Notes under the pieces: model-generated
The model's input: the letters and a program-made list of their open reading frames with translations, nothing else
The model's database searches: none
What the model was told of the DNA's origin: nothing
Position numbers and translations under genes: made by a program
Shown: piece after piece, positions 33,784-53,102 of the stretch
How positions within the stretch are numbered: the first letter of the stretch is position 1
Layout: every line of letters starts with the position of its first letter
DNA from: Ensifer sp. Root278
GTDB lineage: Bacteria > Pseudomonadota > Alphaproteobacteria > Rhizobiales > Rhizobiaceae
Length of the DNA stretch: 64,000 bases
Direction of reading: 5' to 3'
NCBI RefSeq assembly: GCF_001429285.1
Contig: NZ_LMJJ01000009.1
Span: forward strand, 337 to 64,336

Positions 33784-35355
33784 ATGGACGGGACGCTGGC
33801 AAGGCGCGACAGCAATTTATTCGACAGGCTCGAGGGGATCATCAACCGGCTGCCCGAGCCCTTCACATTGCTGCTCGCGCTGGCGGCGCTGACGGCACTG
33901 GCATCTTTCCCATTGGCTCAAGCCGGGGTGTCGCTGGCTTTCTCGACGGTGGATCCGGCCACGGGCCAGGCCGTGGCAAAGACAGTCGCGATCGAGAACA
34001 TCCTGACGCCGTCCTATTTTGCCAACCTCATCGTCGAGTTCCCGAAACTGCTGGTCGGCTTTCCGCCGATCGCCCTGACACTGGTCGTGATGATGGGCAT
34101 TTCGGTTGCCGAGCATTCCGGCTTCCTGTCCTCGGTCATTCGGGGGCTTTTGCGCCGCGTTCCGAAATTCGCGATCATCAGCGTCGTCTCGTTCGTGGCA
34201 ATCAACGGAGACCTTTTCGGCGACGCGGCGATGTTCGTGCTGATGCCGCTTGCGGCCACGCTCTTCTACCAGATGGGGCTCAACCCGTGGCTCGGCATCA
34301 TCCTGGTCTTCGTCGGCAACACGGCCGGCTTTTCTGCCTCCCTCGTCATCAATCAGACGGATACGGTGCTCTCGGGCATTACGGCGAGCGTTCTGCCGCC
34401 GGAGGCCGCGGCCAACGTCTCGCCGATCATGAACTGGTATTTCAACGCGTTCAGCGCCTTCACCGCGACTGCAGCGATGTTGTTCATCACCTACTTCTTC
34501 GTTCCCTCCAAGCTCGCGCCGAACCGCGTGAGCGAACTGGAAATCGAAACGGAGGTGGCTGATGAAGCCGGCACCGGCCATGGCCGCGAAGGGCGGGGCC
34601 TTGTCGCGGCCGGCATCTTCACCGTCATCTATCTCGGCCTGATCCTCGCATCCCTCCTGCCGGAGGGTGGGGCGCTGCGTGGCGAAGGCGGGCAGATCGT
34701 GCCGAAGTCCCCTTTCATGGGCGGCATCGTCGTCCTGATCTCGCTGTACTTCGCGCTGTCGGGCGTCGCCTACGGTTGGGCCTCCGGCCGGCTGAAATCA
34801 CTGGGCGAGGCGGCGGAGTGGATGAAGAACGGCATTTCGTCCATGTCCTATTTCCTCGTCGTTTCCGCAGCTGCGGTGATCTTCCTGAAGCTTTTCAACG
34901 ACAGCCATATCGGAGAATATATCGGCAGCTACGGCGTGGTGATGCTGCAGGGCATGCAGGCCTCGCCGGGTGTTGCGATCTTCCTCTTCCTGCTGCTCGT
35001 CTCTGTATCGAACCTCTTCATCATCTCCGGCAGCGTCCTGTGGATCATGTATGCGCCGATCTTCGTGCCGCTGATGCTGGCGCTCGGCTACAGTCCGGCG
35101 GCGACCCAGATGATCTATCGCATCGGCGATGCGCCGCTGAACGCGATCTGCCCGGTCAACCCCTTCCTCATCCTCGTGATCGGCCTGCTCAACAAATGGC
35201 GGCCGAAGGGTACCGAGGCGGTGAAGGTCGGAACGCCGCTCATGCTGGCCATGCCCTATGCGCTCGCCATCCTCGCGGTTCTCGTGCTGCAACTCGTCTT
35301 CTGGGTGCTGTGGGATCTGCCGCCTGGCCCCGGCGTAACGCTGATGGCACGGTGA
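33784..35355 (+). CDS. AbgT-family transporter (aminobenzoyl-glutamate/dipeptide-like)
   Basis: The 523-residue protein has about twelve hydrophobic segments and the AbgT layout: FDRLEGIINRLPEPFTLLLA at the start, NGDLFGDAAMFVLMPLAATL, GNTAGFSASLVINQTDTVLS, IISGSVLWIMYAPIFVPLML, and IGDAPLNAICPVNPFLILVI. AbgT proteins import p-aminobenzoyl-glutamate or export antimicrobials, driven by ion gradients. It heads a three-gene unit with PyrK- and PyrD-like genes, so it probably imports their substrate or precursor. A FadR-type operator lies about 100 bases upstream. Confidence 0.85.
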   Translation: MDGTLARRDSNLFDRLEGIINRLPEPFTLLLALAALTALASFPLAQAGVSLAFSTVDPATGQAVAKTVAIENILTPSYFANLIVEFPKLLVGFPPIALTLVVMMGISVAEHSGFLSSVIRGLLRRVPKFAIISVVSFVAINGDLFGDAAMFVLMPLAATLFYQMGLNPWLGIILVFVGNTAGFSASLVINQTDTVLSGITASVLPPEAAANVSPIMNWYFNAFSAFTATAAMLFITYFFVPSKLAPNRVSELEIETEVADEAGTGHGREGRGLVAAGIFTVIYLGLILASLLPEGGALRGEGGQIVPKSPFMGGIVVLISLYFALSGVAYGWASGRLKSLGEAAEWMKNGISSMSYFLVVSAAAVIFLKLFNDSHIGEYIGSYGVVMLQGMQASPGVAIFLFLLLVSVSNLFIISGSVLWIMYAPIFVPLMLALGYSPAATQMIYRIGDAPLNAICPVNPFLILVIGLLNKWRPKGTEAVKVGTPLMLAMPYALAILAVLVLQLVFWVLWDLPPGPGVTLMAR

Positions 35356-35361
35356 GCCGTG

Positions 35362-36036
35362 ATGCGCTTTCTCAGTGAAACCGAGGTCCTGGCGTGCCAC
35401 GAACTGCGGCGGGCGGGCGCGCGCCGTTGGCTGCGGCTGGAGGTTGCCGGCCTTGCCGCAGCTAGCCCTGGCGAGACCGTGCTTTTCTCGGAGGATCGCC
35501 ACAGCCCCCGCTGCCGGATCGCGACGGTCGATAGATTTTCGGGTGATCGTGCCGTGCTGGTCGCAAAGTTCGAGGCCGACGATCTTGCACCCGCGGCGGG
35601 CAACGGGCTGACGGTCTGGTCGAACGAAAACCCTGCCGTTTCCGTCGGCGCGGGTTCGCTCATCGTGACCACCTCGGCCTTCCTTTACCGCGTCGCGCCC
35701 TTCGCGCTGCGCGGGGCGACGGTGCTCGTCGAGGAGGCGGGCACGGACCTCTGGCAAGACTTGCGCCGGCGTGTCGAACGCGGCCTCGCCTGGACCTCCG
35801 TCTTCCTCGCGCTCGAACCCGTGCGACTTCAGGCGTTCGCGGCCGAGTTCCCCGACGCCAACCCTTATCTCTTTGCCAATATGGACATGAGTTGCGGCAT
35901 CGGCGCCTGCCGGAGCTGTCACGTGACCGTTTCGGACAACAAGGACGGCGAGGCGAGCTGTCGCGTCGGTCCGTGGTTCGCGCTGCAGCGGGTGAACCTG
36001 GTGCGCCTGCAATTCGCCTCCGCCCCCTTCATTTGA
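35362..36036 (+). CDS. PyrK-like iron-sulfur electron-transfer subunit
   Basis: The 224-residue protein shows the C-terminal [2Fe-2S] motif of PyrK: Cys178, Cys183, Cys186 and Cys200 in SCGIGACRSCHVTVSDNK and ASCRVGPWF. The N-terminal part has an FAD-domain-like region (VGAGSLIVTTSAFLYRVAPF) but is short and diverged from standard PyrK. PyrK passes electrons from FMN in PyrD through FAD to NAD. It is six bases after the AbgT stop and 11 bases before the PyrD-like gene. A GTG one codon upstream is possible. Confidence 0.78.
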   Translation: MRFLSETEVLACHELRRAGARRWLRLEVAGLAAASPGETVLFSEDRHSPRCRIATVDRFSGDRAVLVAKFEADDLAPAAGNGLTVWSNENPAVSVGAGSLIVTTSAFLYRVAPFALRGATVLVEEAGTDLWQDLRRRVERGLAWTSVFLALEPVRLQAFAAEFPDANPYLFANMDMSCGIGACRSCHVTVSDNKDGEASCRVGPWFALQRVNLVRLQFASAPFI

Positions 36037-36047
36037 GGATCGCCGCC

Positions 36048-36998
36048 ATGGACCTTTCCGTAACCGTACCGATGGGCGCAGGCGGCGTGACCTTCAAGAA
36101 CCCGGTCATGTCGGCCGCGGGCACCTTCGGCAACATCGTCGAGTATCTCGATGTCTTCGACATCACGCGGCTCGGCGCAGTCGTTGCAAATTCCTTCCTT
36201 CCCTGGCAGGGCGAGCCGAACCGTTGCCGTCGCTTTGCGCATACGGAGAGCGGCTATCTCTCGGCCTTCGGCATCAACAACATGACGCTCGACCGCTTCA
36301 TTGCCGAGGCGCTGCCGCGGCTGCCGGCGGAGGACGTTCCGGTCTTCGTCAACATCAAGGCACCGACCCGCGTGCAACTCGTGGACATGACCCGCGCCTG
36401 CGTGGAAAGCGGCCGCATTGCCGGCGTCGAGGTCAATGGCAACTTCCCCTATGCCGGCCGTGACGAACCCTCCTACTGGGACAATCCTCAGCAAAACGAG
36501 GAGATGTTCCGCGCGCTTTCAGCTGCGGCAGAGGGCAAGGTGCTGCTGTGGTCGAAGGCGGCCACGTCCGCCAAGATGATAATCGAGGACTTCGTATCCG
36601 CCTCGGAGCGAGGCGGCGCGGATGGAACGGTACTGTTCAACGCCATTCCCGGCGCGCGTATCGATATCGAACGGCGCGCCTTCGTCTGCGGCTCCACTGG
36701 CTTTGGCGGCTACTCCGGTTCCGGCGTGAAGCCCTTCGCGCTTTGGCGCTGCGTGCAGGCAGCGCGCGTCGCCACGCGTCCGGTGATCGCTTCGGGCGGC
36801 ATCACCACAGCGGAGGATGTGGTCGAATTCATCATGGCGGGTGCCCATCTGGTGCAGATCGGCGCCGCCAGCATGAGCCGACCGGATTACTTTCCGCGCC
36901 TTCTCGATGATCTCTACGCGCTTATGGAACGCCTCGGCGTGCGCTCACTCGACGAGATTCGCGGGTGCGCCCGCGCAGAGGCAGCACCTGAGACTTGA
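36048..36998 (+). CDS. PyrD (class 1B dihydroorotate dehydrogenase)-like flavoprotein lacking the catalytic Cys
   Basis: The 316-residue protein follows the class 1B dihydroorotate dehydrogenase fold: VTFKNPVMSAAGTFG, YLSAFGINNM, GFGGYSGSGVKPFALW and PVIASGGITTAEDVVEFIMA. However, where the family has an Asn-x-Ser-Cys-Pro-Asn loop carrying the catalytic Cys, this protein reads VEVNGNFPYAG, with Phe at the Cys position; the later Asn-Thr substrate motif reads NAIPG. FMN binding seems kept but dihydroorotate oxidation is unlikely. TGAGGA lies eight bases before the ATG. It is paired with the PyrK-like gene and probably oxidises or reduces another ring compound. Confidence 0.8.
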   Translation: MDLSVTVPMGAGGVTFKNPVMSAAGTFGNIVEYLDVFDITRLGAVVANSFLPWQGEPNRCRRFAHTESGYLSAFGINNMTLDRFIAEALPRLPAEDVPVFVNIKAPTRVQLVDMTRACVESGRIAGVEVNGNFPYAGRDEPSYWDNPQQNEEMFRALSAAAEGKVLLWSKAATSAKMIIEDFVSASERGGADGTVLFNAIPGARIDIERRAFVCGSTGFGGYSGSGVKPFALWRCVQAARVATRPVIASGGITTAEDVVEFIMAGAHLVQIGAASMSRPDYFPRLLDDLYALMERLGVRSLDEIRGCARAEAAPET

Positions 36999-37176
36999 GC
37001 CGCCGGATGGTAGAGCTTCGCCGCTCGGCATGAAACCGGCCTCCCGCAGCGCCCCGTCGTATCTCCGCAAAGATCCCACCTTCGACATCCCTGATATGGG
37101 TGCAGTGTCCCTGGTCGTACGGTCAGCACCGACGCCAATCCATCGGCCGCGCGTTTTTCTAATGCGGCCGAATGGC

Positions 37177-37902
37177 TCAGCGGGCGGCCGCGACATCACC
37201 CGACTTGTCGCGGGGATAGGCGTAGGCACCTGCCTTTGAGGTCCGAAAGCCGCCACTCGCCAATGCCTCGGCGAGCTTGACGGCCGCCACCACGCCATCG
37301 ATGACGGGTACTCCAGCTTCGCGGGAGAGCCAATCGCACAGCTCCGCCATGCCGGCACAGCCAAGGACGATGGCGTCTACGCCATCCTCGCGTATCGCCG
37401 CGCGCGCTTCGCCGAGGAGTTTGGTCCGCGCACTTTCCGGGTCGGCTTCCAGAGCTAGAACAGGCAGGTCGACCGAGCGCACGCGCCGGCAGCGCGCGGC
37501 AGCACCATATTGCTTGACGAGATCCTCGATCACCGGCACCGACCTCGGCAAGGTGGTGATCACCGCAAAGCGGGTTGCCACCGTCATTGCCACCTGTACC
37601 GCCGCCTGGCAGATTCCGATGACCGGGCCAGTTGCCACTTCGCGCGCAGCCGCAAGGCCGGGATCATCGAAACAGGCGATCACATGTGCCGACGCACCCC
37701 GCTTCTCCGCAGCACGGATCGCCGCCAGCATCGCAGGGACGGCCATCGCCTCGTCCGCGTAACCTTCGATCGAGACGGGCGTACCGATTGCGGTCTCCGC
37801 ATCGATCACAGAGCCTTCCGATCGCACAGCTTCGGCGGCCCGTGCGATCTGATCGGTCATTGATGCGGTCGAGTTCGGGTTGATGACATGTATGCGGATC
37901 AT
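37177..37902 (-). CDS. Asp/Glu/hydantoin racemase family protein
   Basis: The 241-residue protein begins IRIHVINPNSTASMT and keeps the two-cysteine active site of the family: Cys77 in VIACFDDPGL and Cys182 in IVLGCAGMAEL, matching the Cys76/Cys181 pair of hydantoin racemases. It would invert a carbon next to a ring or carboxyl group by a two-base mechanism. Its start overlaps the flavin-reductase-like gene by four bases, so they are cotranscribed. The presence of amidohydrolases nearby fits a hydantoin- or cyclic-amide-like substrate. Confidence 0.87.
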   Translation of the reverse strand: MIRIHVINPNSTASMTDQIARAAEAVRSEGSVIDAETAIGTPVSIEGYADEAMAVPAMLAAIRAAEKRGASAHVIACFDDPGLAAAREVATGPVIGICQAAVQVAMTVATRFAVITTLPRSVPVIEDLVKQYGAAARCRRVRSVDLPVLALEADPESARTKLLGEARAAIREDGVDAIVLGCAGMAELCDWLSREAGVPVIDGVVAAVKLAEALASGGFRTSKAGAYAYPRDKSGDVAAAR

Positions 37903-38555
37903 TGGGCGGCCCTCTCCGGCCTTGGGTTCACTTGCGCGAGCTCGAGAGGCAGCAGTTCCTCCGGCTTCTTAAGTTCGAATTGTCGATCTGAGGTGATATA
38001 ATTGTCGGCATGCAGCCGCGCGATCGGCTGATAGGTCTCGGGGTTCGCATAACGCCCCGCGGGATCGAGGCACCGGTCCTGGATATGCATGTGCACGACC
38101 TTGCCGATGACCAGCACGCGCTTGTGATAGTCGAGGATCTGCTCGACCCTGCATTCAAAGCTGCAGGGACTTTCGGCGATACGGGCGGCGTCGATCTGGT
38201 TGCACGGTATCGGCGTCAGGCCCGCGAAATCGAGTTCATCGACCTCCGAGGCGAAATTGACGCCACAGACGATCATCGCATCGGCGAGCGCCATGTCGAC
38301 CATGTTGACGACGAACTCACCGGTTCGGCGGATGTTCGCGACCGTGTCCTTCTCGTCGCCATTGCCACGGTTCTGGATCCCCAGCACCACCAACGGCGGT
38401 TCATGGGAGAACACGTTGAAGAAGCTCATGGGCGCTGCGTTGTTGTGTCCGGCTGGCGATCGCGTGCCAACGAGCGCGATGGGGCGCGGACCGATGAAGT
38501 TGGTCAGCAGTCGATAGCGATCCGGAGGCGGTAGCGTGGTGAAATCTGTGTTCAA
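37899..38555 (-). CDS. Flavin reductase-like (DIM6/NTAB family) protein
   Basis: The 218-residue protein has the FMN-binding flavin-reductase fold: RPIALVGTRSPAGHNNAAPM, SFFNVFSHEPPLVVLGI, FVVNMVDMALADAM. The start is a TTG with AGGAG eight bases ahead; the frame stays open further upstream to 38684, but those residues are Arg/Pro-rich and lack a ribosome site. It could supply reduced flavin to a monooxygenase or act on a bound substrate itself. It heads a two-gene unit with the racemase gene. Confidence 0.82.
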   Translation of the reverse strand: MNTDFTTLPPPDRYRLLTNFIGPRPIALVGTRSPAGHNNAAPMSFFNVFSHEPPLVVLGIQNRGNGDEKDTVANIRRTGEFVVNMVDMALADAMIVCGVNFASEVDELDFAGLTPIPCNQIDAARIAESPCSFECRVEQILDYHKRVLVIGKVVHMHIQDRCLDPAGRYANPETYQPIARLHADNYITSDRQFELKKPEELLPLELAQVNPRPERAAQ

Positions 38556-38893
38556 GTCCGGATCTCCTGCTTGCCTGTTGATAAATTCAGCAAAAAACCC
38601 CGACGCCCGGCGCGGCGACAATCGGGGCGGCAGCGCGCACGCCCGCCGTTGACTACATTGGGGAATGGCGTCGGTGAACGGCAAACGGCAGCCAAAAGCA
38701 CTGATGGCTCGAGCGCGCAGACACGGCCGACACCGGCATACATCCTTCGGTGGGAACTATAGATTCTCAGGAAAGCATCGCCGTCCCTCCGGTTGGCAAC
38801 GGGTACGATGCGCATGCTGCCCTCCCCGACAGTGCCAATCCCGACGTTCAAGCTATATTGCATCCATTATAACGTCAATATCGTACACGAGAA

Positions 38894-38903
38894 TTGCATA
38901 CAA
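38894..38903. promoter_or_regulatory. GntR/FadR-type operator TTGCATACAA (site 2)
   Basis: Exact copy of the site at 39099 and of the reverse complement of 49757-49766. It lies about 340 bases upstream of the flavin-reductase-like gene, in an AT-rich stretch. Confidence 0.5.
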
Positions 38904-39098: not shown

Positions 39099-39108
39099 TT
39101 GCATACAA
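39099..39108. promoter_or_regulatory. GntR/FadR-type operator TTGCATACAA (site 3)
   Basis: It lies in a 17-base identity, GAATTGCATACAAAACG, shared with the reverse complement of the site upstream of the second GntR gene at 49804. This shared context supports a common binding protein. Confidence 0.52.
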
Positions 39109-39176: not shown

Positions 39177-39896
39177 CTAAAGGCCCTCTTCCTTTGCGTA
39201 GGCAGCAAGGAGATCCGGCAAGCCGTCCTCAACGTTGCTTTTCAGCAGAGCTCGGGCCGTGATGGCGCCGATGTGGTGGCCCATCAGCGCGCATGCCTTT
39301 TCGCGATCGTTCCGCGCAAGGGCGGCGATCAGGGCGCGGTGCTCGGATACGGCGCAATCGGAAGAATGGGGGCGTCCATAGAGCGAAAGGATCATCGACG
39401 AGCGCGAAACGAGTTCCGTAACATAGCGCAATAGGGTCGCGTTCTCAGTCAGTCTTGCGAGCAGGACGTGAAACTCACCGGCGAGTTGAATCGAGGTCGA
39501 CGGATTGCTGACCCTTGCCTTGTCCTCGGCATCGACATGCGCTTCAAGCTCCTTGATCTTCGGCGGCGTCAGCCTGCCGATCAGGCTATCGACCACCAAT
39601 GTCTCCAGGGCTCGCCGCACGGCAAAGATATCGTGTCCATCCTCGAGGCTGGGATGGCTGACACAGGCGCCCTTGTTGGGACGCAATTCGATCAGGCCCT
39701 CGCCGTTCAGCCGGGCCAGCGCCTGGCGCACGATCGTGCGGCTAACGCCGAGCCGCTCGCCGATCGAATCCTCCGGAAGCTTCGTTCCCGCAGCGAAGGC
39801 CTGGTCTAGGATCGCGCGCTTCAGGATGCGATAGACCACGTCCGACTTGGGAACCGAGGATTTTGCATTGCTGTCGCTGGGTTTGGGCGTCGTCAT
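39177..39896 (-). CDS. GntR-family transcriptional regulator, FadR/FCD subfamily (copy 1)
   Basis: The 239-residue protein has a winged helix (YRILKRAILDQAFAAGTKLP, SIGERLGVSRTIVRQALARL, LIELRPNKGACVS) and an all-helical FCD ligand domain with metal-binding positions (LAGEFHVLLA, LYGRPHSSDCAVSEHRALI, ALMGHHIGAI). It is clearly paralogous to the regulator at 49804, with near-identical stretches such as AGTKLPEDSIGERLGVSRT. The ATG at 39896 begins the usual length; an upstream frame to 39986 adds a Pro/Phe-rich piece. It follows two amidohydrolase genes in the same direction. Confidence 0.88.
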   Translation of the reverse strand: MTTPKPSDSNAKSSVPKSDVVYRILKRAILDQAFAAGTKLPEDSIGERLGVSRTIVRQALARLNGEGLIELRPNKGACVSHPSLEDGHDIFAVRRALETLVVDSLIGRLTPPKIKELEAHVDAEDKARVSNPSTSIQLAGEFHVLLARLTENATLLRYVTELVSRSSMILSLYGRPHSSDCAVSEHRALIAALARNDREKACALMGHHIGAITARALLKSNVEDGLPDLLAAYAKEEGL

Positions 39897-40093: not shown

Positions 40094-41290
40094 TCACTCG
40101 ATGACCGGCAGGTCACCTGCCAGTTCGCCGCCGTCCACGACGACGCGACCGCGCCGGATCACGGTGCGCTTGTGCGGGGTCAGCGCGACCGCTTCCGCCA
40201 ACGTTCGCGCCGGCACCAGCACCAGATCGCCGAAACAACCATCGGAGAGACCATAACCGCCGAGCCCGATGCCGTCCGCACCACCGAAAGTGCAGACGCG
40301 GGCCGCATATTCGAGATCGACATCATTGGCCATGCCATTGCGCTGCGCCAGATACTTCGCGCGCTCCAGCATGTCGCCATTTCCATACGGCTCCCAGGTG
40401 CCTTGAATACCGTCGGAACCGGAGGCGACGGTGAGTCCGCTCGCGCGCATCAATCTTAATGGCAGTGCGGGCGCCGATGGACTTCCTACGGTCATAACCG
40501 CGATACGCACTGCAGCGAGCCGTTCGATCAACCCAGCCTGCCGTGAGGCATCGAGCATCCCCAGGCAATAGGCATGGCTTACCATGACCCGCCCTTGCAG
40601 CGACAAGGCGCGCGTGCGTTCGATGATGAGATCAAGGCAAAATGCACCGAGGTCACCCGGTTCGTGCAGATGGATGTCGATCGGTTTTGCGTGACGATCC
40701 GCAAGGGCGAAGATGGCATCGAGATGACGCACCGGATCGCGCTCGATGGAGGCAGGGTCGATACCGCCGACGATGTCGGCGCCGGCGCTGAGGGCCGCGT
40801 CCATCAACTCGAGCGTGCCCGCGCGCGGCAGCATGCCACTCTGCGGGAAAGCCACAATCTGCACATCGACCAGATCACGCATCGCCTCGCGCGTTTCGAG
40901 GACACCTTCGATGTTGGCAATGCCGATCTCGGTGTCGACATCGACGTGGCTGCGAATGCTCAAAACGCCGTAGGCAAGCGTCTGCATGATCTGACGGGCC
41001 GACTGCCGGCGCGCATTGATGCCAAGTTCGCGCTTGGCGTCGCGGTCGGCCAGGATCCGGTCATTGCGGGTCGGGCCAACCCGATTTTCGAACCAGTCCA
41101 TGCCGATGAGGGTCTTGTCGAGATGGGTATGAGCCTCGACAAGACCCGGCATGGCGACATGTCCGGCCGCATCGATCTCGACCGCGGCACGGACGCTATC
41201 TGCCGCAACGAACCGGCCGTCACGGATGAAAAGGTCTTCGAGCGGGCCGCCGAAGGGACGGGCATTGCGGATGAGTAGGTCTGCAATCAC
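40094..41290 (-). CDS. Cytosine-deaminase-like amidohydrolase
   Basis: The 398-residue metal-dependent hydrolase shows the expected ligands: His54 and His56 in VEAHTHLDKTL, His207-x-His209-Glu210 in IDIHLHE, His239 in MVSHAYC and Asp293 in ASGSDGIQGT. The LVDVQIVAFPQSGMLP and WEPYGNGDMLERA stretches are hallmarks of the CodA/AtzC branch, which deaminates cytosine or related N-heterocycles. It is cytosolic, with no signal sequence. It is paralogous to the exported enzyme at 50682. It lies 26 bases after another amidohydrolase gene, so both are one unit. Confidence 0.86.
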   Translation of the reverse strand: MIADLLIRNARPFGGPLEDLFIRDGRFVAADSVRAAVEIDAAGHVAMPGLVEAHTHLDKTLIGMDWFENRVGPTRNDRILADRDAKRELGINARRQSARQIMQTLAYGVLSIRSHVDVDTEIGIANIEGVLETREAMRDLVDVQIVAFPQSGMLPRAGTLELMDAALSAGADIVGGIDPASIERDPVRHLDAIFALADRHAKPIDIHLHEPGDLGAFCLDLIIERTRALSLQGRVMVSHAYCLGMLDASRQAGLIERLAAVRIAVMTVGSPSAPALPLRLMRASGLTVASGSDGIQGTWEPYGNGDMLERAKYLAQRNGMANDVDLEYAARVCTFGGADGIGLGGYGLSDGCFGDLVLVPARTLAEAVALTPHKRTVIRRGRVVVDGGELAGDLPVIE

Positions 41291-41316: not shown

Positions 41317-42693
41317 TTAACGACGCTCGCTTAGTCCGGCACGAGCCATCGCGAGATCAAAGGCGCGCAAGGCGCGATCCAGGATCGCGCCTTCGTCCTG
41401 ACCAACAAGGCGCCGCCCGCGCATCAGCACCCGTCCACCCACGATGGTCGTATCCACGTCCGCCCCGTTGGCGAAGCGCGCGATGCGCTGCACCGGATCG
41501 TGCGGCGGCCAGAGATGGGGCTGACGCATGTTTACGAGGAGGATGTCGGCGCGCTTGCCGGCCACGAGCGAACCGAGTTCATTCTCCATCATCAGAGCGC
41601 GCGCGCCCTCGATCGTTGCCATCTCAAGCAGCTGCAGCGGTGGCAACACGGCATCGTCTGCGAAATGGCGCGCGTGGTAGCGGTGCGCCTGGAACAGGTT
41701 GCGAAACATGTCGAAAGGCCTATCGGGTGCCGCGGCGTCGGTGCCGAGGGAAACCGTGACGCCGTCCGCCATCAGTTCCGGCGCCGGGCACCGACCGTAA
41801 ACCGACATCAATGCACTGGGATTGTGTGCGACCTTGGCACCGGTTCGTTTCAGGACTGCGCGGTCGCCCTCGGTCAGGTCTATGCAATGGGCAAGCAGCG
41901 ATCGCTCGTCAAAGAGGCCGAGGCGCACGTCATTGGCGGCGATGGACCCGTCGCGGTGTCCATCTTGCACCACGAGGCATTCCCTTTCCCGCGCACGATC
42001 TCGGACCTTGCATGCAATTCTGTATACCGTTTCGTCTCGCAATTCCTGCTCATCGAATACGGGCAGGGAAAAGACGACCTGTATCCGCTCGTGACGTCCG
42101 GCCCAAGCATCGACCAACTCCGTGGCCACGTCGATTTGCCGGTCCGGGTCGACGACGATGTCGCTGTGGGACGTCGGCGTATACTGGCGATACACATGTT
42201 CCTGTCCTGGACGGTTCGGCCCCACTGCCAGAACCTCTCGCACGCCCATGGCGGCAACCGCGGCGAGGTGCGCTTCGGCTGCCTCCGGCGCCTCGCTGCG
42301 CATGATATCCGGGCCGCCGCCAAACAGCAGCGCCGCAGTCGTCGTGCCGCATTTGATCCTCTCGGCGGCCGACAGTGCCGCCTCCGCCGCCCAGAATTCA
42401 GGATCTGTCGCGGTTGCATAGATACGGCCGGTCACGGACATCCAATCCTCGGCCTCACTGCCCAGCCCCTTGGTCAGCATATGTCCGGCATGGGCGTGCG
42501 TGTCGATCAATCCGGGCATCGCGACCATGCCGGCGGCGTCGATGCGCTCGGCATGTGTTTCTCCAGCAAGGCTTCCGTCGCCGATGGCGGCGATGCGTCC
42601 ATTCTCAACCAGGATATGGCCGCGATCGAGAACCCGCCGTCCCGGATCCATCGTGATGATCGTGGCATTTTCAATCAGTAGTGCGTTCGTCAT
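41317..42693 (-). CDS. TrzA/AtzA/SsnA-type amidohydrolase (chlorohydrolase/aminohydrolase family)
   Basis: The 458-residue protein starts MTNALLIENATIITMDPGRR and has the metal site His66-x-His68 (LIDTHAHAGH), His in LLAHCIDLTEG and Asp in VSLGTDAAAPD. The DMFRNLFQAHRYHARHF stretch fits the nucleoside/triazine deaminase branch. The start is set by GAGAGGG upstream; the frame remains open to 42831 but the extra residues are unlike the family. It is divergent from the dipeptide-type ABC operon across a 165-base region with a GntR operator-like site. Substrate unknown. Confidence 0.86.
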   Translation of the reverse strand: MTNALLIENATIITMDPGRRVLDRGHILVENGRIAAIGDGSLAGETHAERIDAAGMVAMPGLIDTHAHAGHMLTKGLGSEAEDWMSVTGRIYATATDPEFWAAEAALSAAERIKCGTTTAALLFGGGPDIMRSEAPEAAEAHLAAVAAMGVREVLAVGPNRPGQEHVYRQYTPTSHSDIVVDPDRQIDVATELVDAWAGRHERIQVVFSLPVFDEQELRDETVYRIACKVRDRARERECLVVQDGHRDGSIAANDVRLGLFDERSLLAHCIDLTEGDRAVLKRTGAKVAHNPSALMSVYGRCPAPELMADGVTVSLGTDAAAPDRPFDMFRNLFQAHRYHARHFADDAVLPPLQLLEMATIEGARALMMENELGSLVAGKRADILLVNMRQPHLWPPHDPVQRIARFANGADVDTTIVGGRVLMRGRRLVGQDEGAILDRALRAFDLAMARAGLSERR

Positions 42694-42833
42694 GGAAGAT
42701 TCCCTCTCCGGCTGCCGGGTTTGACGTTCTTTTTTGACAAAGCGCTGCCAAATCGACTTTCGCCATCTTGATATTGTTTGCATCAGATGTACACTATTTT
42801 TGGGAACATTCGTATCCAATAGCAAAGGCAATA

Positions 42834-42843
42834 TGTATACGTT
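42834..42843. promoter_or_regulatory. GntR/FadR-type operator TGTATACGTT (site 4)
   Basis: On the minus strand it reads AACGTATACA, identical to site 1 at 33678. It lies in the divergent promoter between the TrzA-like gene and the dipeptide-type ABC operon, 16 bases from the start of the latter. Related half sites TTGCATCA (42779) and TGTACAC nearby may extend it. Confidence 0.48.
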
Positions 42844-44594: not shown

Positions 44595-45560
44595 ATGATC
44601 AGACTTCTTTCAGTCAGGCTGCTTCAGGCCATCCTCGTGATGGTCGCGGTGACGGCCATTGCCTTCGTTATGTTCCGCTTCGTCGGCGATCCGGTCGCCT
44701 CCATGGTGCGCGAGGGGGCGACCCAGGCCGAAAAGGACGCAGTGCGCGTCGCGCTCGGTCTCGACAAGCCGGTCTTGGCTCAGTTCGTCAAATTCGTTGG
44801 CCAAGTGCTGACCGGCGACCTCGGCACAAGCTATCGCTACCAGCAGCCCGTGACGACCCTGTTGCTCAGTCGCCTTCCCGCCACGCTGGAACTGGTGATC
44901 GTTGCCACCGTGCTGGCACTGTCGCTCGGCATACCGCTTGGGGTGCTCTGCGCGCTGAAGCCGCACGCCTTCTTCTCGCGGCTGACCCAGTCAGCGACAC
45001 TTGTCGGCATTTCCATGCCCACCTTCGTCACAGGCCTGCTGCTGATCCTGGTTTTCGCAGTAAATCTGCGATGGTTGCCATCGTCGGGACGCGGAGATCT
45101 TGTCGACATCGGATTCTGGCAAACCGGCTTTCTCTCGCTTTCGGGCCTGAAGTCGCTGATCCTGCCTTCGATCACACTGGCATTGTTCCAGCTCACCCTG
45201 ATCATGCGGCTGGTGCGCTCGGAAATGATCGACGTCTTGTCGTCGGACTACATCCGCTTCGCCTTCGCACGCGGCCTGCCGCGGACCTACATCTATGGAC
45301 GGCTCGCGCTGCGCAACGCATTGATGCCGGTCGTCACCGTCACAGGCCTGCAGATCGGGCAACTCATCGCCTTCGCGATCGTCACCGAGACGGTGTTCCA
45401 ATGGCCGGGCATGGGCCTGCTGTTCACGAACGCCGTCGGCTATCCCGACGTGCCGGTGCTGGCTGCCTACCTTCTCTTCGTGGGCTTCCTGTTCGTCATG
45501 ATCAACATGATCGTCGACATTCTCTACACCTTCATCGATCCGCGCCTGAGGACACGATAA
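44595..45560 (+). CDS. Dipeptide-type ABC transporter permease (DppB family)
   Basis: The 321-residue membrane protein has a first segment near LQAILVMVAVTAIAFVMFRF, the DPVASMVREGAT periplasmic loop typical of DppB, and the cytoplasmic loop FAFARGLPRTYIYGRLALRN. It ends LYTFIDPRLRTR, the usual DppB C-terminus. Its stop overlaps the start of the next permease gene by one base (TAATG). Confidence 0.92.
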   Translation: MIRLLSVRLLQAILVMVAVTAIAFVMFRFVGDPVASMVREGATQAEKDAVRVALGLDKPVLAQFVKFVGQVLTGDLGTSYRYQQPVTTLLLSRLPATLELVIVATVLALSLGIPLGVLCALKPHAFFSRLTQSATLVGISMPTFVTGLLLILVFAVNLRWLPSSGRGDLVDIGFWQTGFLSLSGLKSLILPSITLALFQLTLIMRLVRSEMIDVLSSDYIRFAFARGLPRTYIYGRLALRNALMPVVTVTGLQIGQLIAFAIVTETVFQWPGMGLLFTNAVGYPDVPVLAAYLLFVGFLFVMINMIVDILYTFIDPRLRTR

Positions 45561-46456
45561 TGGCTACGCAATCCCTGATGCGCCGGCTTCCGCCGGTTTC
45601 CGTTGTCATCGCCAGCCTGGTGCTCGTCGTCATGCTGGTCCTCGTGATCTTCGCCCCGATGATCGCGCCCATGGACCCGCGCGACGTCGCCTCCTATTCG
45701 CTGATGGATATGGAAATTCCACCTGTCTTCATGGAAGGCGGAGATTCGCGGTTTCTGCTCGGCACCGACAACCAGGGCCGCGACCTCGTCTCGGTCATCC
45801 TGTTCGGCTTGAGGATCTCCGTCGTCATCGGCCTCGGCGCAGTGGTCTTTGCGGCCGTGCTTGGCGTCGTGCTCGGCCTCGTCGCCGGCTTCTTCGGCGG
45901 CGTGGTCGATAGCATCGTGATGCGGATCGCCGATATCTTTGTCAGCTTCCCGACTATCCTCGTCGCACTGCTCATCAGCGGCATCGCCCGCGCGCAGCTC
46001 AGCGCCGAGACGATGCTCGCCTGGGCACCGCTGGTGCTGATCTTCTCCATCGCCATCAACGAATGGGTGCAATACGCGCGAACCGTACGCGCCTCGACCA
46101 TGGTGGAGATCGCGCGAGACTATGTGCGTGCCGCCAAGGTCATCGGCCTGCCGTCCACCCGCATCATGGGCCGCCACATCCTGCCGAACATCATGAGTTC
46201 GGTGATGGTCATCGCCACGATCAACCTCGCCGGCGCGATCCTGACGGAGGCAACGCTCTCCTTCCTCGGCGCAGGCATGCCGCCGACCTATCCTTCGCTC
46301 GGCACACTGATCCGCATCGGCAACCAGTTCCTGTTCTCCGGCCTCTGGTGGATCGCAGTGATGCCCGCGACAGTGCTGGTCATCCTCGTGCTGGCCGTCA
46401 ACGTGATCGGCGACTATCTGCGCGACCACTTCAACCCGAAACTGATGGCTCGATGA
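45560..46456 (+). CDS. Dipeptide-type ABC transporter permease (DppC family)
   Basis: The 298-residue membrane protein begins MATQSLMRRLPPVSVVIASL and carries DppC hallmarks: LLGTDNQGRDLVSVILFGLR, then the EAA-like loop DYVRAAKVIGLPSTRIMGRH and LTEATLSFLGAGMPPTYPSL. The start is fixed by the TAATG overlap; the frame extends well upstream but inside the DppB gene. It forms the channel with DppB. Confidence 0.92.
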   Translation: MATQSLMRRLPPVSVVIASLVLVVMLVLVIFAPMIAPMDPRDVASYSLMDMEIPPVFMEGGDSRFLLGTDNQGRDLVSVILFGLRISVVIGLGAVVFAAVLGVVLGLVAGFFGGVVDSIVMRIADIFVSFPTILVALLISGIARAQLSAETMLAWAPLVLIFSIAINEWVQYARTVRASTMVEIARDYVRAAKVIGLPSTRIMGRHILPNIMSSVMVIATINLAGAILTEATLSFLGAGMPPTYPSLGTLIRIGNQFLFSGLWWIAVMPATVLVILVLAVNVIGDYLRDHFNPKLMAR

Positions 46457-46457
46457 G

Positions 46458-48170
<1,713 letters not shown>

Positions 48171-48380
48171 GCGTGGATGGCAAGATCTTTGCGGACTTTC
48201 CGCGCCGGCCAAACCTCAACGGCATTGGCGACCTGTCGCCGACATCCTTTTTGGCCGGCCACTGTCCCGGCTTGCGCTGGTGACCTTGGGGGGCTGCCCA
48301 TCGCGAATGACTGACGCGCCATCGCGCAAGTGCCTCTTCGGGCCACAAACAAGAAGAAGACGTAAAGGAAATACCCGATC

Positions 48381-49577
48381 ATGCCCAAATCAACCCAGCC
48401 CACGACGGGCCGCCAATGGATGCTGCTCATTCTCGTCGTGCTGGTCGCCGTCAATCTGCGGCCATTTCTTACCGCTCCGGGGCCTGTGCTGTCCGAGATC
48501 GTCGCCGATACCGGCATGGGATATGGCAGCCTGGCACTGCTGACATTGTTGCCGATAATGCTCATGGGCGTCGGTGCCTTCGTATCCCCCTCGCTGCAGG
48601 CCTTGATCGGCACGCGGCGCGGCATTCTCGTCGCTCTCGTTGTGCTGGCGGCCGGCTCCCTGCTCCGGCTTGTCGCACCGGGCGGCATAGCGTTGGTGAT
48701 GACGGCCGCCCTTTGCGGCGCCGGCGTCGCCTTTATCCAGGCGGCCTTCCCGGGCATCATCAAGGCGGAGTTTCCGCGCAGCATACCCGTGGTCACCGGC
48801 CTCTATTCCGCCGTCCTGATGGGCGGCGGGGCTTTGGGCGCGCGGCTGACGCCATTCCTCGTCAGTGCCGGCTACGGCTGGCGCCCGGCACTTGCCTGGC
48901 TCGCGGCACCGGCGCTTGTTGCTCTCAGTGCCGCGTGGCTGATCCTGTCGGATTCGCGCAGCGATCGCCCGGACAAGGCGCTCACCGGCCGGCTGCTCCG
49001 CCGGCCCCGGACCTGGACGCTCATACTCGCCTTCGGCCTGGTCAACGCCGGCTACTCTTCCGCCGTCGCCTGGCTCGCCTCCTATTACCAATCTCTCGGT
49101 TGGAGCAGCGGAGATAGCGGCAATCTCGTAGCGCTGATGGCCATCTGTCAGGCGGCTGCCGCCCTCGCCCTGCCGGTCTTGGCCCGCCGTAGCATCGATC
49201 GCCGCGCCTTCCTGCGCCTGACGCTGGCGATGCAGGCGATCGGTTTTGCTGGCATTGCGTTCGTGCCCCAAGCGGCGCCCGCGATCTGGGTTGGCCTGTG
49301 CGGTGCCGGCCTCGGCAGCAGCTTCTCGCTGGCAATCGTCACCGCCCTCGATCACTTGCCGCGACCGCAGGAGGCCGGTGTGCTGGTGGCATTGATGCAG
49401 GGCGGCGGCTTCCTGATCGCGTCCCTCGGCCCCTTCGCCACGGCATTTCTGCACGACATCAGCGGCAGCTTCGCCCCTGGGTGGACGCTGCATCTCGGCT
49501 GCGTCGTCGGCGTTTTCTTCCTCTATACGCGCTTCAACCCGTCACGCTACGCACAAGCAATGCAGTCACCGATCTGA
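48381..49577 (+). CDS. MFS transporter, CynX/NimT family
   Basis: The 398-residue protein has about twelve membrane segments and the CynX-type opening VAVNLRPFLTAPGPVLSEIV, a strong mark of this family. Relatives move cyanate, 2-nitroimidazole or other small nitrogenous compounds. AAGGAAAT precedes the ATG. It stands 210 bases after the ATPase gene, in the same direction, and before the second GntR regulator. Its presence among amidohydrolases fits a small N-compound as cargo. Confidence 0.85.
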   Translation: MPKSTQPTTGRQWMLLILVVLVAVNLRPFLTAPGPVLSEIVADTGMGYGSLALLTLLPIMLMGVGAFVSPSLQALIGTRRGILVALVVLAAGSLLRLVAPGGIALVMTAALCGAGVAFIQAAFPGIIKAEFPRSIPVVTGLYSAVLMGGGALGARLTPFLVSAGYGWRPALAWLAAPALVALSAAWLILSDSRSDRPDKALTGRLLRRPRTWTLILAFGLVNAGYSSAVAWLASYYQSLGWSSGDSGNLVALMAICQAAAALALPVLARRSIDRRAFLRLTLAMQAIGFAGIAFVPQAAPAIWVGLCGAGLGSSFSLAIVTALDHLPRPQEAGVLVALMQGGGFLIASLGPFATAFLHDISGSFAPGWTLHLGCVVGVFFLYTRFNPSRYAQAMQSPI

Positions 49578-49756
49578 GCGAAATATTGCTCTCCCGATGG
49601 GTTTCGACCCTTGGGCCCGCCTCGTGCGGGCTGAACAGCATCTTGCTAGCGAACTCGGCCAGAACACGAGAGGCATCACCTGGCGACAGGCCTTTTCGTT
49701 CTGCGCCCACCGCTGTTGCCTCGGGTCGATGCCAAATCACTAGACATCTCGCCGTT

Positions 49757-49766
49757 TTGTATGCAA
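49757..49766. promoter_or_regulatory. GntR/FadR-type operator TTGTATGCAA (site 5)
   Basis: The reverse complement of TTGCATACAA; with flanks it shares 17 identical bases with site 3. It lies 37 bases upstream of the second GntR gene, suggesting that this gene is autoregulated or regulated by its paralogue. Confidence 0.55.
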
Positions 49767-49803
49767 TTCGAGGAGACAATTGCTACGGCTTGGAGTGACC
49801 AGT

Positions 49804-50508
49804 ATGGCAAAAAAAGAGAGCGAAGGCGGCGGCGGCCGCGCTCAGGCCGTTCATCGCGTCCTGAAACGCGCAATCCTTGATCAGGCGCTGTCTCCAGGAT
49901 CGAAGCTGCCGGAAGATTCGATCGGCGAAAGGTTGGGTGTCAGCCGGACCCTGGTGCGCGAGGCGCTGGTTCGCCTTAGCGAGGAAGGGTTGGTGGAGTT
50001 GCGGCCGAACAGGGGAGCCGTGGTCGCGCGGCCGACACTTGAGGAAGGGCGCAATCTGTTCCTGACCCGAATGGCGCTGGAGCGGCTGGTGGTGGAGACG
50101 CTTTCGGGAAAATTGACGAGCGAACAAATCGGCATTCTTTCGTCTCATATCGCTGCCGAGGAAGCAGCAAAGAAGGAGCGCGCTCCGTCGATCCGTCTGG
50201 CGGGCGAATTTCATACGCTGCTGGCACAGATGACGAACAACGCCAGCCTCATCCGCTACGTGAACGAACTGGTCGCCCGCAGTTCCCTGATCCTTGCACT
50301 CTATGGCCGACCGCATTCTTCGGAATGCGCCGTATCGGAGCACCAGGAGCTTCTGGACAAATTGATCGCCGGCAAGACCGACGAGGCGGCAGCCCTCATG
50401 GCGCATCACCTCGACTCGGTAACGACCCGGGCTTTGCTTCCGACCGACGGAGACAGAAACATCAAGGAAGTGCTGTCTGCCTACGCCGTTGCGGAGGGCC
50501 TTGCCTAG
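49804..50508 (+). CDS. GntR-family transcriptional regulator, FadR/FCD subfamily (copy 2)
   Basis: The 234-residue protein mirrors copy 1 at 39177: winged helix HRVLKRAILDQALSPGSKLP and SIGERLGVSRTLVREALVRL, FCD domain with LAGEFHTLLAQMTNNASLIR, LYGRPHSSECAVSEHQELLD and ALMAHHLDSVTTRALL. TGGAG lies eight bases before the ATG at 49804. An operator-like palindrome sits just upstream. Like copy 1 it neighbours a cytosine-deaminase-like gene, here convergent with it. Confidence 0.9.
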   Translation: MAKKESEGGGGRAQAVHRVLKRAILDQALSPGSKLPEDSIGERLGVSRTLVREALVRLSEEGLVELRPNRGAVVARPTLEEGRNLFLTRMALERLVVETLSGKLTSEQIGILSSHIAAEEAAKKERAPSIRLAGEFHTLLAQMTNNASLIRYVNELVARSSLILALYGRPHSSECAVSEHQELLDKLIAGKTDEAAALMAHHLDSVTTRALLPTDGDRNIKEVLSAYAVAEGLA

Positions 50509-50521
50509 GCGAAACGCAGCA

Positions 50522-50542
50522 CTCCCGGAGGATACCCGGGAG
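50522..50542. terminator. Hairpin between convergent GntR and amidohydrolase genes
   Basis: A 7-bp stem (CTCCCGG / CCGGGAG, 7-base loop) lies 13 bases after the GntR stop codon. The flanking GCA and TGC may extend the stem. It has no T-run. Confidence 0.5.
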
Positions 50543-50681
50543 CCTTGTGCACAGTCGGCGCGCGAGCCATTCCTTTGACACACACGCTACCAGCTCTTGG
50601 AGCACTTCGACGTTCGGCAAGACACGGCTGCTGGCCGGCTCGTGATGACGAACGTCGTCGTGACACCCAAAGCAGAGCTTA

Positions 50682-52079
50682 TCAGGCTTCGCCAACCCCA
50701 CCCGACACGAGACGCCCCTTGTGGAAGGTCGCAGTCCTGGCGGGCACCCGGGCCACCGCCTCTGCCGAGCAGCTCGCTCCGACGAGCGTGAACGAGGCCT
50801 CATCGCCGACATTTGGCCAAGCGCGTTTGCCCTTGTCGTCGAGGGGCAGAATGCCGCCAGTGGCGATAGACATGGACCGGGACAGACGGAATTCGTCCGA
50901 ACCACGATAAAGCTGCGCGTAGAGATATGCCTTTTCCAGCATGTCCCCGCTGCCGAATGGCGACCAGTGGTCGATGACGCTGTCGGTTCCGGTCATGACG
51001 AAACCCCCCTTCTGGGCCAGCTGCGGCAAGGGCATCATCAATCCACCGATCGGCACCGTCGAGGCAATCGAGATCTTCTGTTCCGCCAGGCGCGAGGCTG
51101 TCTCTTCCAGAGCCTCCGGAGCAAGTGTGGTCAGTGCGAAGGCGTGGCTGATCGTGACCTTGCCGCGCAGAGCGGGATTCTTCTCGACGGTATCGATCAT
51201 GTAGTTGACCGCCGCCATGCCGGCGGGGCTCGTTTCATGCAGATGAATGTCCACGCCCTTGCCAGTATCCAGCGCGATCTGGAACATGGCGTCGAGTGAC
51301 TTTTCCATGGCGCCGTCGACATTCGTCGGGTCCAGGCCGCCGACATACTGAACGCCCATCTGCATGGCTTCACGCATCAGGCCATCGACCTTGGAGTGAA
51401 GCAGGCCGTGCTGGGGGAAGGCGACGATTTCACACACGAAATCATCACGATGGTTTTCCAACGCCTGCTGCAGGTGCTCAAGGCTTTTGAGGCCGCTGAC
51501 CGGGTCGATGTTGCAATGGCTGCGTGCGACCGTGCTTCCCTTGGACTGCAGGAGAGCGATCAGGCCCTCCGCGCGCTCTCGCGAGGTCGGCAGCAACTGA
51601 GGAAGCAGCTTCTCCTCGAGAGCGATCATATCCATGATGGTTTTGCCCTGACGCGGGCGCGGCGCCTGCCATGGACCACCATAAAACGTCTTATCGAGAT
51701 GGATGTGCATATCGCGCATCGTCGGCAGCAACAGTTTGCCGTGCGCCTGATAGCGCGGCACACCTTCGGGCAGGTTCGCATTCTCAGCGTGCAAGGCGAC
51801 AATCGCGCCGTCCTTGATCTCCAACGCGTAGAGCGCAGTCCGTGTGGCGACGACGACATCGCCGTCATACTCAAACCCCTCCTCCAATCGCACGCCGGTC
51901 AGGATGTAGTGGCGATCCACGAGCGTCTTGGTGTTCGTCTCGCCAGCGCTCTTACCCGCGCTGGCCGATGCCTCGCGAACCGCGCCGCCAGACAAGCCGG
52001 CGACAGCGCACGCCGTGGTCAGCGCCCCGGTCCGGCTGAGAAAGGTCCTGCGGCTTTGCGGTAGCATCTGTTCCAACAT
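50682..52079 (-). CDS. Tat-exported cytosine-deaminase-like amidohydrolase
   Basis: The 465-residue protein starts with a twin-arginine signal: SRRTFLSRTGALTTACAVAG at residues 9-28, cleavage likely near ASAS at 37-40. The hydrolase part has His125-x-His127 (DMHIHLDKTF), VDIHLHETS, TISHAFALT and an Asp in VMTGTDSVIDHW, and shares CEIVAFPQHGLL and SGDMLEKAYLYAQ with the cytosolic enzyme at 40094. Few members of this branch are exported, so this one is probably a folded metalloenzyme that works in the periplasm before import. Substrate unknown. Confidence 0.85.
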   Translation of the reverse strand: MLEQMLPQSRRTFLSRTGALTTACAVAGLSGGAVREASASAGKSAGETNTKTLVDRHYILTGVRLEEGFEYDGDVVVATRTALYALEIKDGAIVALHAENANLPEGVPRYQAHGKLLLPTMRDMHIHLDKTFYGGPWQAPRPRQGKTIMDMIALEEKLLPQLLPTSRERAEGLIALLQSKGSTVARSHCNIDPVSGLKSLEHLQQALENHRDDFVCEIVAFPQHGLLHSKVDGLMREAMQMGVQYVGGLDPTNVDGAMEKSLDAMFQIALDTGKGVDIHLHETSPAGMAAVNYMIDTVEKNPALRGKVTISHAFALTTLAPEALEETASRLAEQKISIASTVPIGGLMMPLPQLAQKGGFVMTGTDSVIDHWSPFGSGDMLEKAYLYAQLYRGSDEFRLSRSMSIATGGILPLDDKGKRAWPNVGDEASFTLVGASCSAEAVARVPARTATFHKGRLVSGGVGEA

Positions 52080-52244
52080 CGTTGCGTTGCCTCATCATGG
52101 ATTGGGTCAGGGCCGCCAATCTACCGAACGGCGCCACCGCATGGCAGCGACATTTACCAATGCTGGCTATTCGATTTGCCAATGCAAGCGGGCGACCGCG
52201 CAGCGATCGCGAATGACAAGGAGGTAGACACCTCCCCTCTGTCG

Positions 52245-53102
52245 CTACCGCCGCAGGTCACAATACTCGATGAGACGTTCCGCAAGCGCCAGCGCTGCGG
52301 CGCTAGCATCGTCGCGGTAAAACAGCGCCAGTTCAAAGTCATCGACGGATGGCAGACGCTCGGCCGCGCCCAGCACGCGGTGGGAAGGCAGACGGCAGCT
52401 CGCAGGCAGCAGACTGACACCAAGCCCGGCAGCCGAGGCGGCGGCGAGCGCTGCGAGACTGGCGCTGCTGTAGCTGATACGCCAGCGAATGCCGAGAGTA
52501 TCGAGCGCCTGACATAATTCGTCGCGGTAGAGGCCGTTCAGCGGGAACACAGCCAAAGGCACCGGCACCTGCTCGATCGCCGGGCGCACGAGGCTGTCCA
52601 GCCACAGCAACGGTTCAGGCCTTGCCGCGCGCGGCTGTTGCTTGCGGCGCTGTTTGACGAGAATAAGGTCGAGCTCTCCGTCCCGATAGGCGAGTTGCAG
52701 ATCGGCGCTGAGACCGCTCGTCACGTCCAGCCGCAAGTGCGGATGCTGGCTATTGAAAGCCGCCAGCAGATCGGCCGTCGGCACCATGAAATCCTCGGGC
52801 ATTCCCAAGCGAAGCACGCCGTCACGCCATGGGCCCGCCAAGGCGTCATGCGCCTCTTCGTTCAGCGCGATGATGCGGCGCGCATAGCTCAGCAACTTGA
52901 CGCCTTCCTCCGTCAGTTGCACCTGATGTGACGAGCGTTCAAAAAGTGCCTTCCCGAGCATTTCCTCCAGTCGGCGAATTTGCTGACTGACTGTCGATTG
53001 GGAAAGGTTCACCCGCTCGGCTGCGCGGGTGAAGCTGTTGCTTTCGCAAATGGCCACAAAACTGAGCAGCAGCTGGGGATTGAACATGGGATAGCGGTTC
53101 AT
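52245..53102 (-). CDS. LysR-family transcriptional regulator
   Basis: The 285-residue protein has the LysR DNA-binding domain (LLLSFVAICESNSFTRAAER, LSQSTVSQQIRRLEEMLGKA) and a standard effector domain (RDGVLRLGMPEDFMV onward). The start could be five codons later (MFNPQLL). It lies 165 bases ahead of the exported amidohydrolase gene in the same direction and may regulate it. Effector unknown. Confidence 0.87.
   Translation of the reverse strand: MNRYPMFNPQLLLSFVAICESNSFTRAAERVNLSQSTVSQQIRRLEEMLGKALFERSSHQVQLTEEGVKLLSYARRIIALNEEAHDALAGPWRDGVLRLGMPEDFMVPTADLLAAFNSQHPHLRLDVTSGLSADLQLAYRDGELDLILVKQRRKQQPRAARPEPLLWLDSLVRPAIEQVPVPLAVFPLNGLYRDELCQALDTLGIRWRISYSSASLAALAAASAAGLGVSLLPASCRLPSHRVLGAAERLPSVDDFELALFYRDDASAAALALAERLIEYCDLRR

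Follow-up and report, generated by a model that had tools for sequence, protein, structure and literature searches.

The question raised by a 64,000-nucleotide stretch of the Ensifer sp. Root278 genome (positions 337-64336 of contig C9, hereafter the window) is whether 16 genes between its positions 33784 and 53102, which encode transporters, amidohydrolases, a racemase, redox proteins and regulators, act together, and on what. A preliminary description had proposed one undescribed pathway for an N-heterocycle or cyclic amide, running from periplasmic pre-hydrolysis through import, deamination and redox change to racemisation. Genes were called from reading frames and family profile scans of this 7.1 Mb, 44-contig genome, and the gene inventory of that description was recovered in full (Table 1). 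The reading that we favour, and consider likely, is a co-regulated catabolic cluster that takes up and degrades an N-heterocycle with amino or imino substituents, or a cyclic ureide, by a route that probably runs through hydantoin-like intermediates. Sequence evidence establishes which genes are present, that they share an operator and that runs of them are conserved. The proposed pathway stands in its shared operator and in a core conserved across genera and orders; it is not supported as a single linear route for all genes.

The operator common to the cluster genes is real. With at most one mismatch, TTGNATACAA has 11 matches in the window, a number that none of 100 shuffles attained (3.6 expected, standard deviation 2.2); matches were counted per strand, so that palindromic sites are scored twice. 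The exact pattern TTGYATACAA is found at 10 distinct places in the 7.1 Mb genome, four of them in the cluster (38894, 39099, 49757 and 53225), against an expectation of 0.028 for 19.7 kb (P 2.4e-8 under a Poisson model). One of the places outside the cluster falls within a long reading frame. Upstream of the AbgT-family gene, the four aligned loci carry AATAAACGTATACAA in the window, AATAAATGTATGCGA in genome G219 of the same family, and AATAAATGTATGCAA and AATATATGTATGCAA in the other two, Ensifer adhaerens and Sinorhizobium chiapasense. The region between the divergent solute-binding protein and TRZ-like genes holds ATGTACA and TCGTAT(C/G)CAA in 9/9 aligned loci and ATGTATACG in eight of the nine, and the TTTTGTATGCAATT block, 47 bp 5' of the second GntR/FCD regulator gene, is identical in all six aligned loci. 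The earlier claim of common operators in the region is thus borne out by window enrichment, by the genome-wide count and by conservation upstream of the AbgT, importer and second GntR genes. Sigma-54 -24/-12 promoters are not enriched in the window (22 matches with at most two mismatches to the consensus, versus 29.9 expected). A passage of PMC12316311 lists the orthologous groups of hydantoin racemase and dipeptide ABC transporters among sigma-54-regulated proteobacterial genes.

Conservation of gene order provides further evidence. The core comprises the Opp-type ATP-binding cassette (ABC) importer, the AtzC/CodA-like and TRZ/ATZ-like amidohydrolases, the hydantoin/allantoin-type racemase, the flavin reductase and GntR. 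By megablast of 24 kb, the nearest DNA lies on large replicons of E. adhaerens (90% identity, 99% coverage) and S. chiapasense (89%, 96%). In G154, of the same genus, the order is unchanged, with importer, TRZ, AtzC/CodA, GntR 1, flavin reductase and racemase on one side and CynX, GntR 2, the Tat (twin-arginine) amidohydrolase and LysR on the other; G071, also of the genus, has this arrangement minus the racemase. Gene content and order are also kept in E. canadensis, and homologous genes are present in Shinella HZN7. Within the family, G106 and G236 hold the importer, both amidohydrolases, GntR 1 and CynX, and G219 the importer, both amidohydrolases and a flavin reductase at 43% identity. A Sinorhizobium meliloti copy (locus L140) combines the importer and two amidohydrolases with an allantoinase-type gene; a third TRZ-type gene there (15212-16039) is represented by an incomplete frame that shares 48% identity with TRZ3 from G189. 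Gene content and order are conserved further in Defluviimonas, Gemmobacter, Leisingera, Sulfitobacter, S. meliloti pSymB, G616 and G400, and a paralogous cluster is found on contig C8 of the own genome. In this paralogue, frame selection found no flavin reductase; a short segment 5' of the racemase (L151, 8788-8990) resembles, by eye, the N-terminal residues of such a protein.

Same-strand runs of core genes recur in Rhizobiales and Rhodobacterales. In G189, one strand reads SBP-permease-permease-AtzC/CodA-TRZ3-ATPase-ATPase-flavin reductase-racemase-GntR (SBP, solute-binding protein), and in G200 the importer, flavin reductase, racemase and AtzC/CodA share a strand, with GntR-TRZ divergent. 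Across 247 family genomes, the racemase is matched at E≤1e-70 in 31, own included, and at 25 of 30 loci, again counting our own, it has a flavin reductase gene no more than 1.5 kb away (none is present at L091, L098, L114, L115 and L116). The TRZ protein is matched at E≤1e-120 in 10/247 family genomes and at E≤1e-100 in 14/385 class genomes, own included in both. Four family loci carry a TRZ homologue of 47-50% identity, three with the flavin reductase and all four with GntR. At the 13 other class loci, most TRZ proteins resemble the product of G106's second TRZ gene more closely than they do the window protein; within at most 9 kb on each side (shorter at contig ends), the importer accompanies 7, the racemase 3, AtzC/CodA 2 and D-hydantoinase 2. 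The preliminary description had held that unconserved gene order would speak against its idea; on that criterion the idea survives for the core, a gene set conserved across genera and orders.

The partner genes and the racemase point to a probable class of substrate. The S. meliloti copy adjoins an AllB-type allantoinase (TIGR03178, 526.6 bits, cut-off 357.85), and the G472 and G581 clusters contain a D-hydantoinase (TIGR02033, 553 and 556 bits, cut-off 393.25), joined in G472 by a carbon-nitrogen hydrolase. Xanthine-dehydrogenase-type genes stand alongside the Sulfitobacter cluster; one NCS1 permease belongs to the Leisingera cluster and another lies beside AbgT-PyrK-PyrD in G219. Because relatives add allantoinase, D-hydantoinase, carbon-nitrogen hydrolase, xanthine-dehydrogenase-type genes or NCS1 permeases, catabolism of a cyclic ureide or N-heterocycle is the best reading of these comparisons. 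G374 has genes for oxoprolinase-type subunits on the opposite strand, and Shinella has hydantoinase A/B-family genes. What these neighbours share is a chemistry of cyclic ureides, cyclic amides and N-heterocycles. Next to the E. canadensis cluster (L139, 22986-31521) lie genes for TauE/SafE, a uracil-xanthine permease, XdhC, UbiX, UbiD and two amidohydrolases, which may represent an additional heterocycle route.

The best solved match of the racemase is 3qvj_A (216 bits), followed at 147 bits by allantoin racemase 5lfd, and the window protein retains the two Cys residues that 3qvj has and that 3qvk carries as Ser. On family match and two catalytic Cys it is classed as a hydantoin/allantoin-type racemase with predicted activity. 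These scores also bear on a different substrate, a metal-chelating opine or peptide-like compound served by an Opp/Nik-type importer and ligand-processing amidohydrolases. The racemase is weakly similar to the epimerase OpaE (55 bits), and in both S. meliloti and S. mexicanum the racemase and flavin-reductase pair adjoins nickel-annotated importers, close to genes for nickel/cobalt transporters; yet the racemase is far nearer to 3qvj and allantoin racemase, and the partner genes encode ureide and purine enzymes. We regard such a substrate as improbable.

The three amidohydrolases differ in how well their active sites are kept. The AtzC/CodA-like protein exceeds its PRK05985 subfamily cut-off, and its metal and HxxE motifs are retained in aligned relatives (the Shinella row is partial); the Tat amidohydrolase keeps both motifs as well. 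In the TRZ-like protein, Leu240 and Gln243 align with the His and Glu of the AtzA HxxE motif (H243 and E246). This Gln lies within QDGH in all 23 sequences compared (the window and all 22 homologue loci from the family and class searches), and the position of the His is occupied by Leu, Ile, Val, Gly or Arg, never by His. The predicted structure (predicted local distance difference test score, pLDDT, 90) has the amidohydrolase fold, with AtzA as the best solved match at a template modelling (TM) score of 0.8. The protein therefore has the TRZ fold but lacks the deaminase motif, and it may hydrolyse in another way or be inactive. AtzA-type chemistry was set aside for it, the HxxE His and Glu being replaced, and of the deamination step proposed earlier the part assigned to the TRZ protein is doubtful.

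The atrazine route is related in that the TRZ protein models best on AtzA and the other two amidohydrolases match AtzC-like chains; the AtzA HxxE pair is replaced, however, and no ring-opening triazine gene is among the 16. The Tat amidohydrolase belongs to the same NCBIfam subfamily as Escherichia coli YahJ (PRK06846) and shares about 63% identity with Enterobacteriaceae proteins named YahJ, but it adjoins an operator-linked catabolic cluster. Its N-terminus carries, as read by eye, a twin-arginine-like SRRTFLS. Ankyrin-repeat genes adjoin amidohydrolase genes at L132 (1865-2533), L133 (1558-2214), L143 (13429-14109) and L192 (14517-15107), as annotated in Microvirga and Defluviimonas and as identified by eye in G106 and G236.

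Other genes are add-ons separable from the core, namely AbgT-PyrK-PyrD, the Tat amidohydrolase with LysR, and CynX. The PyrD-like protein is matched at E≤1e-60 in 2/247 family genomes (own and G219) and 1/385 class genomes (own), and at E≤1e-50 in three of 72,556 plasmid records, one of which shares match coordinates with a G219 contig. In a contig scan, the best 80 of 172 relatives all showed 30-37% identity to it and came mostly from Lachnospiraceae, which is uninformative on the cluster. In G219, the AbgT-PyrK-PyrD trio lies on contig C3, followed by the NCS1-family gene, and the core on C1. LysR and the Tat amidohydrolase stand without the core in stretches of Paracoccus, Microvirga and Ewingella. 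That all genes form one linear route, as first supposed, is not supported: few genomes contain the trio, G219 has it separated from the core, and the LysR-Tat pair does without the core in the stretches of those three genera.

This modularity raises the alternative that unrelated catabolic modules (AbgT-PyrK-PyrD, racemase with flavin reductase, ABC importer with amidohydrolases, and LysR with Tat amidohydrolase) were gathered on an accessory replicon, with nothing in common but FCD-GntR operators that look alike. Each module occurs somewhere without the others, and the operator occurs at other places in the genome too. In G189, G200, Defluviimonas and Sulfitobacter, nevertheless, importer, amidohydrolase, flavin reductase and racemase genes follow one another on a single strand; G219 retains the site 5' of AbgT despite the trio being on another contig, and it also has the core, which is present in all four trio-bearing genomes or replicons (window, E. 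adhaerens, S. chiapasense and G219). A gathering of this kind seems rather unlikely.

Several observations weigh against a co-regulated cluster for cyclic-ureide or N-heterocycle catabolism. Six of the ten exact TTGYATACAA places lie outside the cluster, several adjoining GntR- or ABC-like frames by eye. A broader operator pattern was matched in none of eight distant cluster loci (L151, L157, L159, L173 and L192-L195), and the copies in G106, G236 and S. meliloti (L140) gave no match either. Where the family TRZ homologue has 47-50% identity, importer, racemase and AtzC/CodA occur together at one locus of four (G200); at the 13 class loci, the flavin reductase is present once (L178), and 6/13 are without any of the partner genes sought within about 9 kb (shorter at contig ends). 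Some racemase-flavin-reductase pairs sit by nickel-annotated importers, as described above, and SBP_bac_5 importers often carry peptides or metals. Deamination by the TRZ-like protein is doubtful because its HxxE is lost, the reaction of the PyrD-like protein is uncertain because the catalytic Cys is replaced by Phe, and no ring-opening hydrolase is among the genes in the window.

The AbgT-family protein matches the Pfam family of the p-aminobenzoyl-glutamate transporter, PF03806, but falls below the cut-off of TIGR00819 (280 bits versus 753.55) and the equivalog cut-off of NF008459 (228.9 versus 864). The adjacent PyrK- and PyrD-like genes resemble dihydroorotate dehydrogenase B in fold family, in being two neighbouring genes and in the [2Fe-2S] cysteines, of which 179, 184, 187 and 201 are invariant in 4/4 PyrK-like sequences. 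PyrK itself is matched only over this C-terminal part; the predicted model has low confidence (mean pLDDT 63.4), and its Foldseek matches to ferredoxin-reductase folds (best TM about 0.3) are only a hint of such a fold. In contrast to dihydroorotate dehydrogenase B, the PyrD-like protein is rare among the genomes searched, lies below curated PyrD cut-offs (TIGR01037, 149.9 bits versus 270; NF005574, 197 versus 269), and has Phe133 aligned with Cys135 of the Lactococcus lactis enzyme (1ep1_A), the catalytic Cys. Phe is found in the window and three homologues alike (4/4). Assignment of the textbook dihydroorotate dehydrogenase reaction is accordingly not warranted.

Family scans of the 16 genes found no hydantoinase, carbamoylase, allantoinase or later allantoin gene. 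In the own genome, a dihydropyrimidinase/hydantoinase lies outside the window at C5 (TIGR02033, 601 bits), and L201 (C40:242000-259000), probably an ergothioneine-utilisation cluster, encodes an ErtD-type hydantoin-5-propionate amidohydrolase (NF058538, 803 bits, cut-off 600). Since these are encoded elsewhere in the genome, ring opening could occur outside the cluster. The ErtD-type gene follows a histidine-ammonia-lyase-like frame, by eye. As the missing ring-opening step it was set aside, no exact operator having been found on C40.

The remaining explanation, a disguised form of one of two known pathways, reductive pyrimidine degradation (Pyd) or hydantoin utilisation (hyu), draws on the racemase and on the D-hydantoinase and carbon-nitrogen hydrolase of relatives. 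It appears very improbable: the 16 genes hold no hydantoinase or carbamoylase, the PyrD-like protein has no catalytic Cys, and the dihydropyrimidinase gene lies elsewhere in the genome, points on which the standard Pyd route was also set aside. Clusters of the hyu type, with racemase, D-hydantoinase and N-carbamoylase, share a related racemase with the window and D-hydantoinase and carbon-nitrogen hydrolase with its relatives, whereas the window has an AtzC-/TRZ-type front end, an Opp-type importer and a flavin reductase. The allantoin racemase/allantoinase pathway is likewise approached through 5lfd and the AllB-type gene by the S. meliloti copy, but no gene for allantoinase or a later allantoin step is among the 16. 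RutA-type families were not among the matches of the 16 genes in general family scans, with no further search made, and the PreA model NF006183 scored 61.9 bits against a cut-off of 335 in the same scans. The earlier statement that the set fits neither the pyrimidine, the hydantoinase nor the atrazine routes therefore stands for Pyd, hydantoin utilisation and AtzA chemistry, whose defining genes or residues fail, as do those of dihydroorotate dehydrogenase.

Under the favoured reading of cyclic-ureide or N-heterocycle catabolism, the GntR/FCD proteins would be repressors released by substrate or product. The Tat-type exported amidohydrolase may trim the compound in the periplasm, and the Opp-type importer, plus AbgT where present, would bring it into the cell. 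There the AtzC/CodA-like amidohydrolase would strip an exocyclic N group and the TRZ-like enzyme, whose active site is altered, might cleave a further C-N bond. A redox change could be contributed by the flavin-dependent proteins, namely the racemase-paired flavin reductase and the PyrK/PyrD-like pair. The racemase would then invert C5 of a hydantoin- or allantoin-like intermediate, and the racemised ring would be opened by a hydantoinase or allantoinase whose gene lies outside the cluster.

Table 1. Genes of the studied cluster and operator or operator-like sites (window positions).
Feature	Position	Strand	Basis
AbgT-family transporter	33784..35355	+	PF03806 346 bits, gathering 27
PyrK-like electron-transfer protein	35359..36036	+	PF10418 33.4 bits, gathering 23.9; C-terminal [2Fe-2S] motif CGIGACRSC..C
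Dihydroorotate dehydrogenase (DHOD)-fold PyrD-like protein	36048..36998	+	PF01180; Phe133 at catalytic-Cys position
Hydantoin/allantoin-type racemase (Asp/Glu/hydantoin racemase), predicted	37177..37902	-	PF01177 208.7 bits; two Cys kept
Flavin-reductase-like protein	37899..38558	-	PF01613; nearest solved 4z85, 2-nitrobenzoate nitroreductase
GntR/FCD regulator 1	39177..39896	-	PF00392 and PF07729
AtzC/CodA-like amidohydrolase (PRK05985 type)	40094..41290	-	NF004636 476.8 bits, cut-off 408
TRZ/ATZ-like amidohydrolase, QDGH replacing HxxE	41317..42693	-	PF01979; closest solved AtzA
SBP_bac_5 solute-binding protein	42859..44433	+	PF00496 305 bits
ABC permease 1	44595..45560	+	PF00528
ABC permease 2	45557..46456	+	PF00528
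Fused two-domain ABC ATPase	46458..48170	+	PF00005, two stretches
CynX/NimT-like major facilitator superfamily transporter	48381..49577	+	NF007256 375 bits, cut-off 312
GntR/FCD regulator 2	49804..50508	+	57% identical to GntR/FCD regulator 1
YahJ-type amidohydrolase (PRK06846)	50682..52079	-	NF005312 634.3 bits, cut-off 447
LysR regulator	52245..53102	-	PF00126, PF03466
Operator-like site upstream of AbgT, ACGTATACAA	33679..33688		ATGTATGCAA or ATGTATGCGA in relatives; aligned with E. adhaerens, S. chiapasense, G219
Operator TTGCATACAA	38894..38903		Site upstream of flavin reductase in relatives too
Operator TTGCATACAA	39099..39108		Pattern search of window, genome, relatives
Operator-like sites between divergent TRZ and SBP genes	42787..42842		ATGTACACTA at 42787, ATGTATACGT at 42833; aligned in 9 loci
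Operator TTGTATGCAA	49757..49766		47 bp upstream of GntR 2; 6/6 loci
Operator TTGTATACAA upstream of LysR	53225..53234		Pattern search of window, genome, relatives

The CynX/NimT-like transporter is below the TIGR00896 cut-off (269.5 bits versus 406). Just past the cluster, a second complete SBP_bac_5 (dipeptide-type) ABC importer lies on the minus strand (window 55773-61076).

Full-text searches of an open-licence library turned up no description of this cluster, nor is one given in passages of PMC7431475, PMC3546935, PMC6015842 and PMC12316311. Within the scope of those searches it is apparently an undescribed variant of hydantoin/cyclic-ureide catabolic clusters. A passage of PMC3546935 calls the natural function of hydantoinases unclear. 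A bolder extension, which we think unlikely and offer as speculation, is an alphaproteobacterial pathway family that removes N from amino- or imino-hydantoins and purine-derived ureides, for example from iminoallantoin or guanidinohydantoin to an allantoin-like product, through a novel hydrolase of TRZ type whose metal site is rewired, aided in some strains by a reductase of DHOD fold that dispenses with the classical base.

If the cyclic-ureide or N-heterocycle reading is true, the gene set that rhizobia, as well as marine and other Rhodobacterales, carry on large replicons would acquire a role, and hydantoin-type racemases would gain a natural setting. Two protein subfamilies would also be delimited, with changes in their active sites from which new reactions are predicted.

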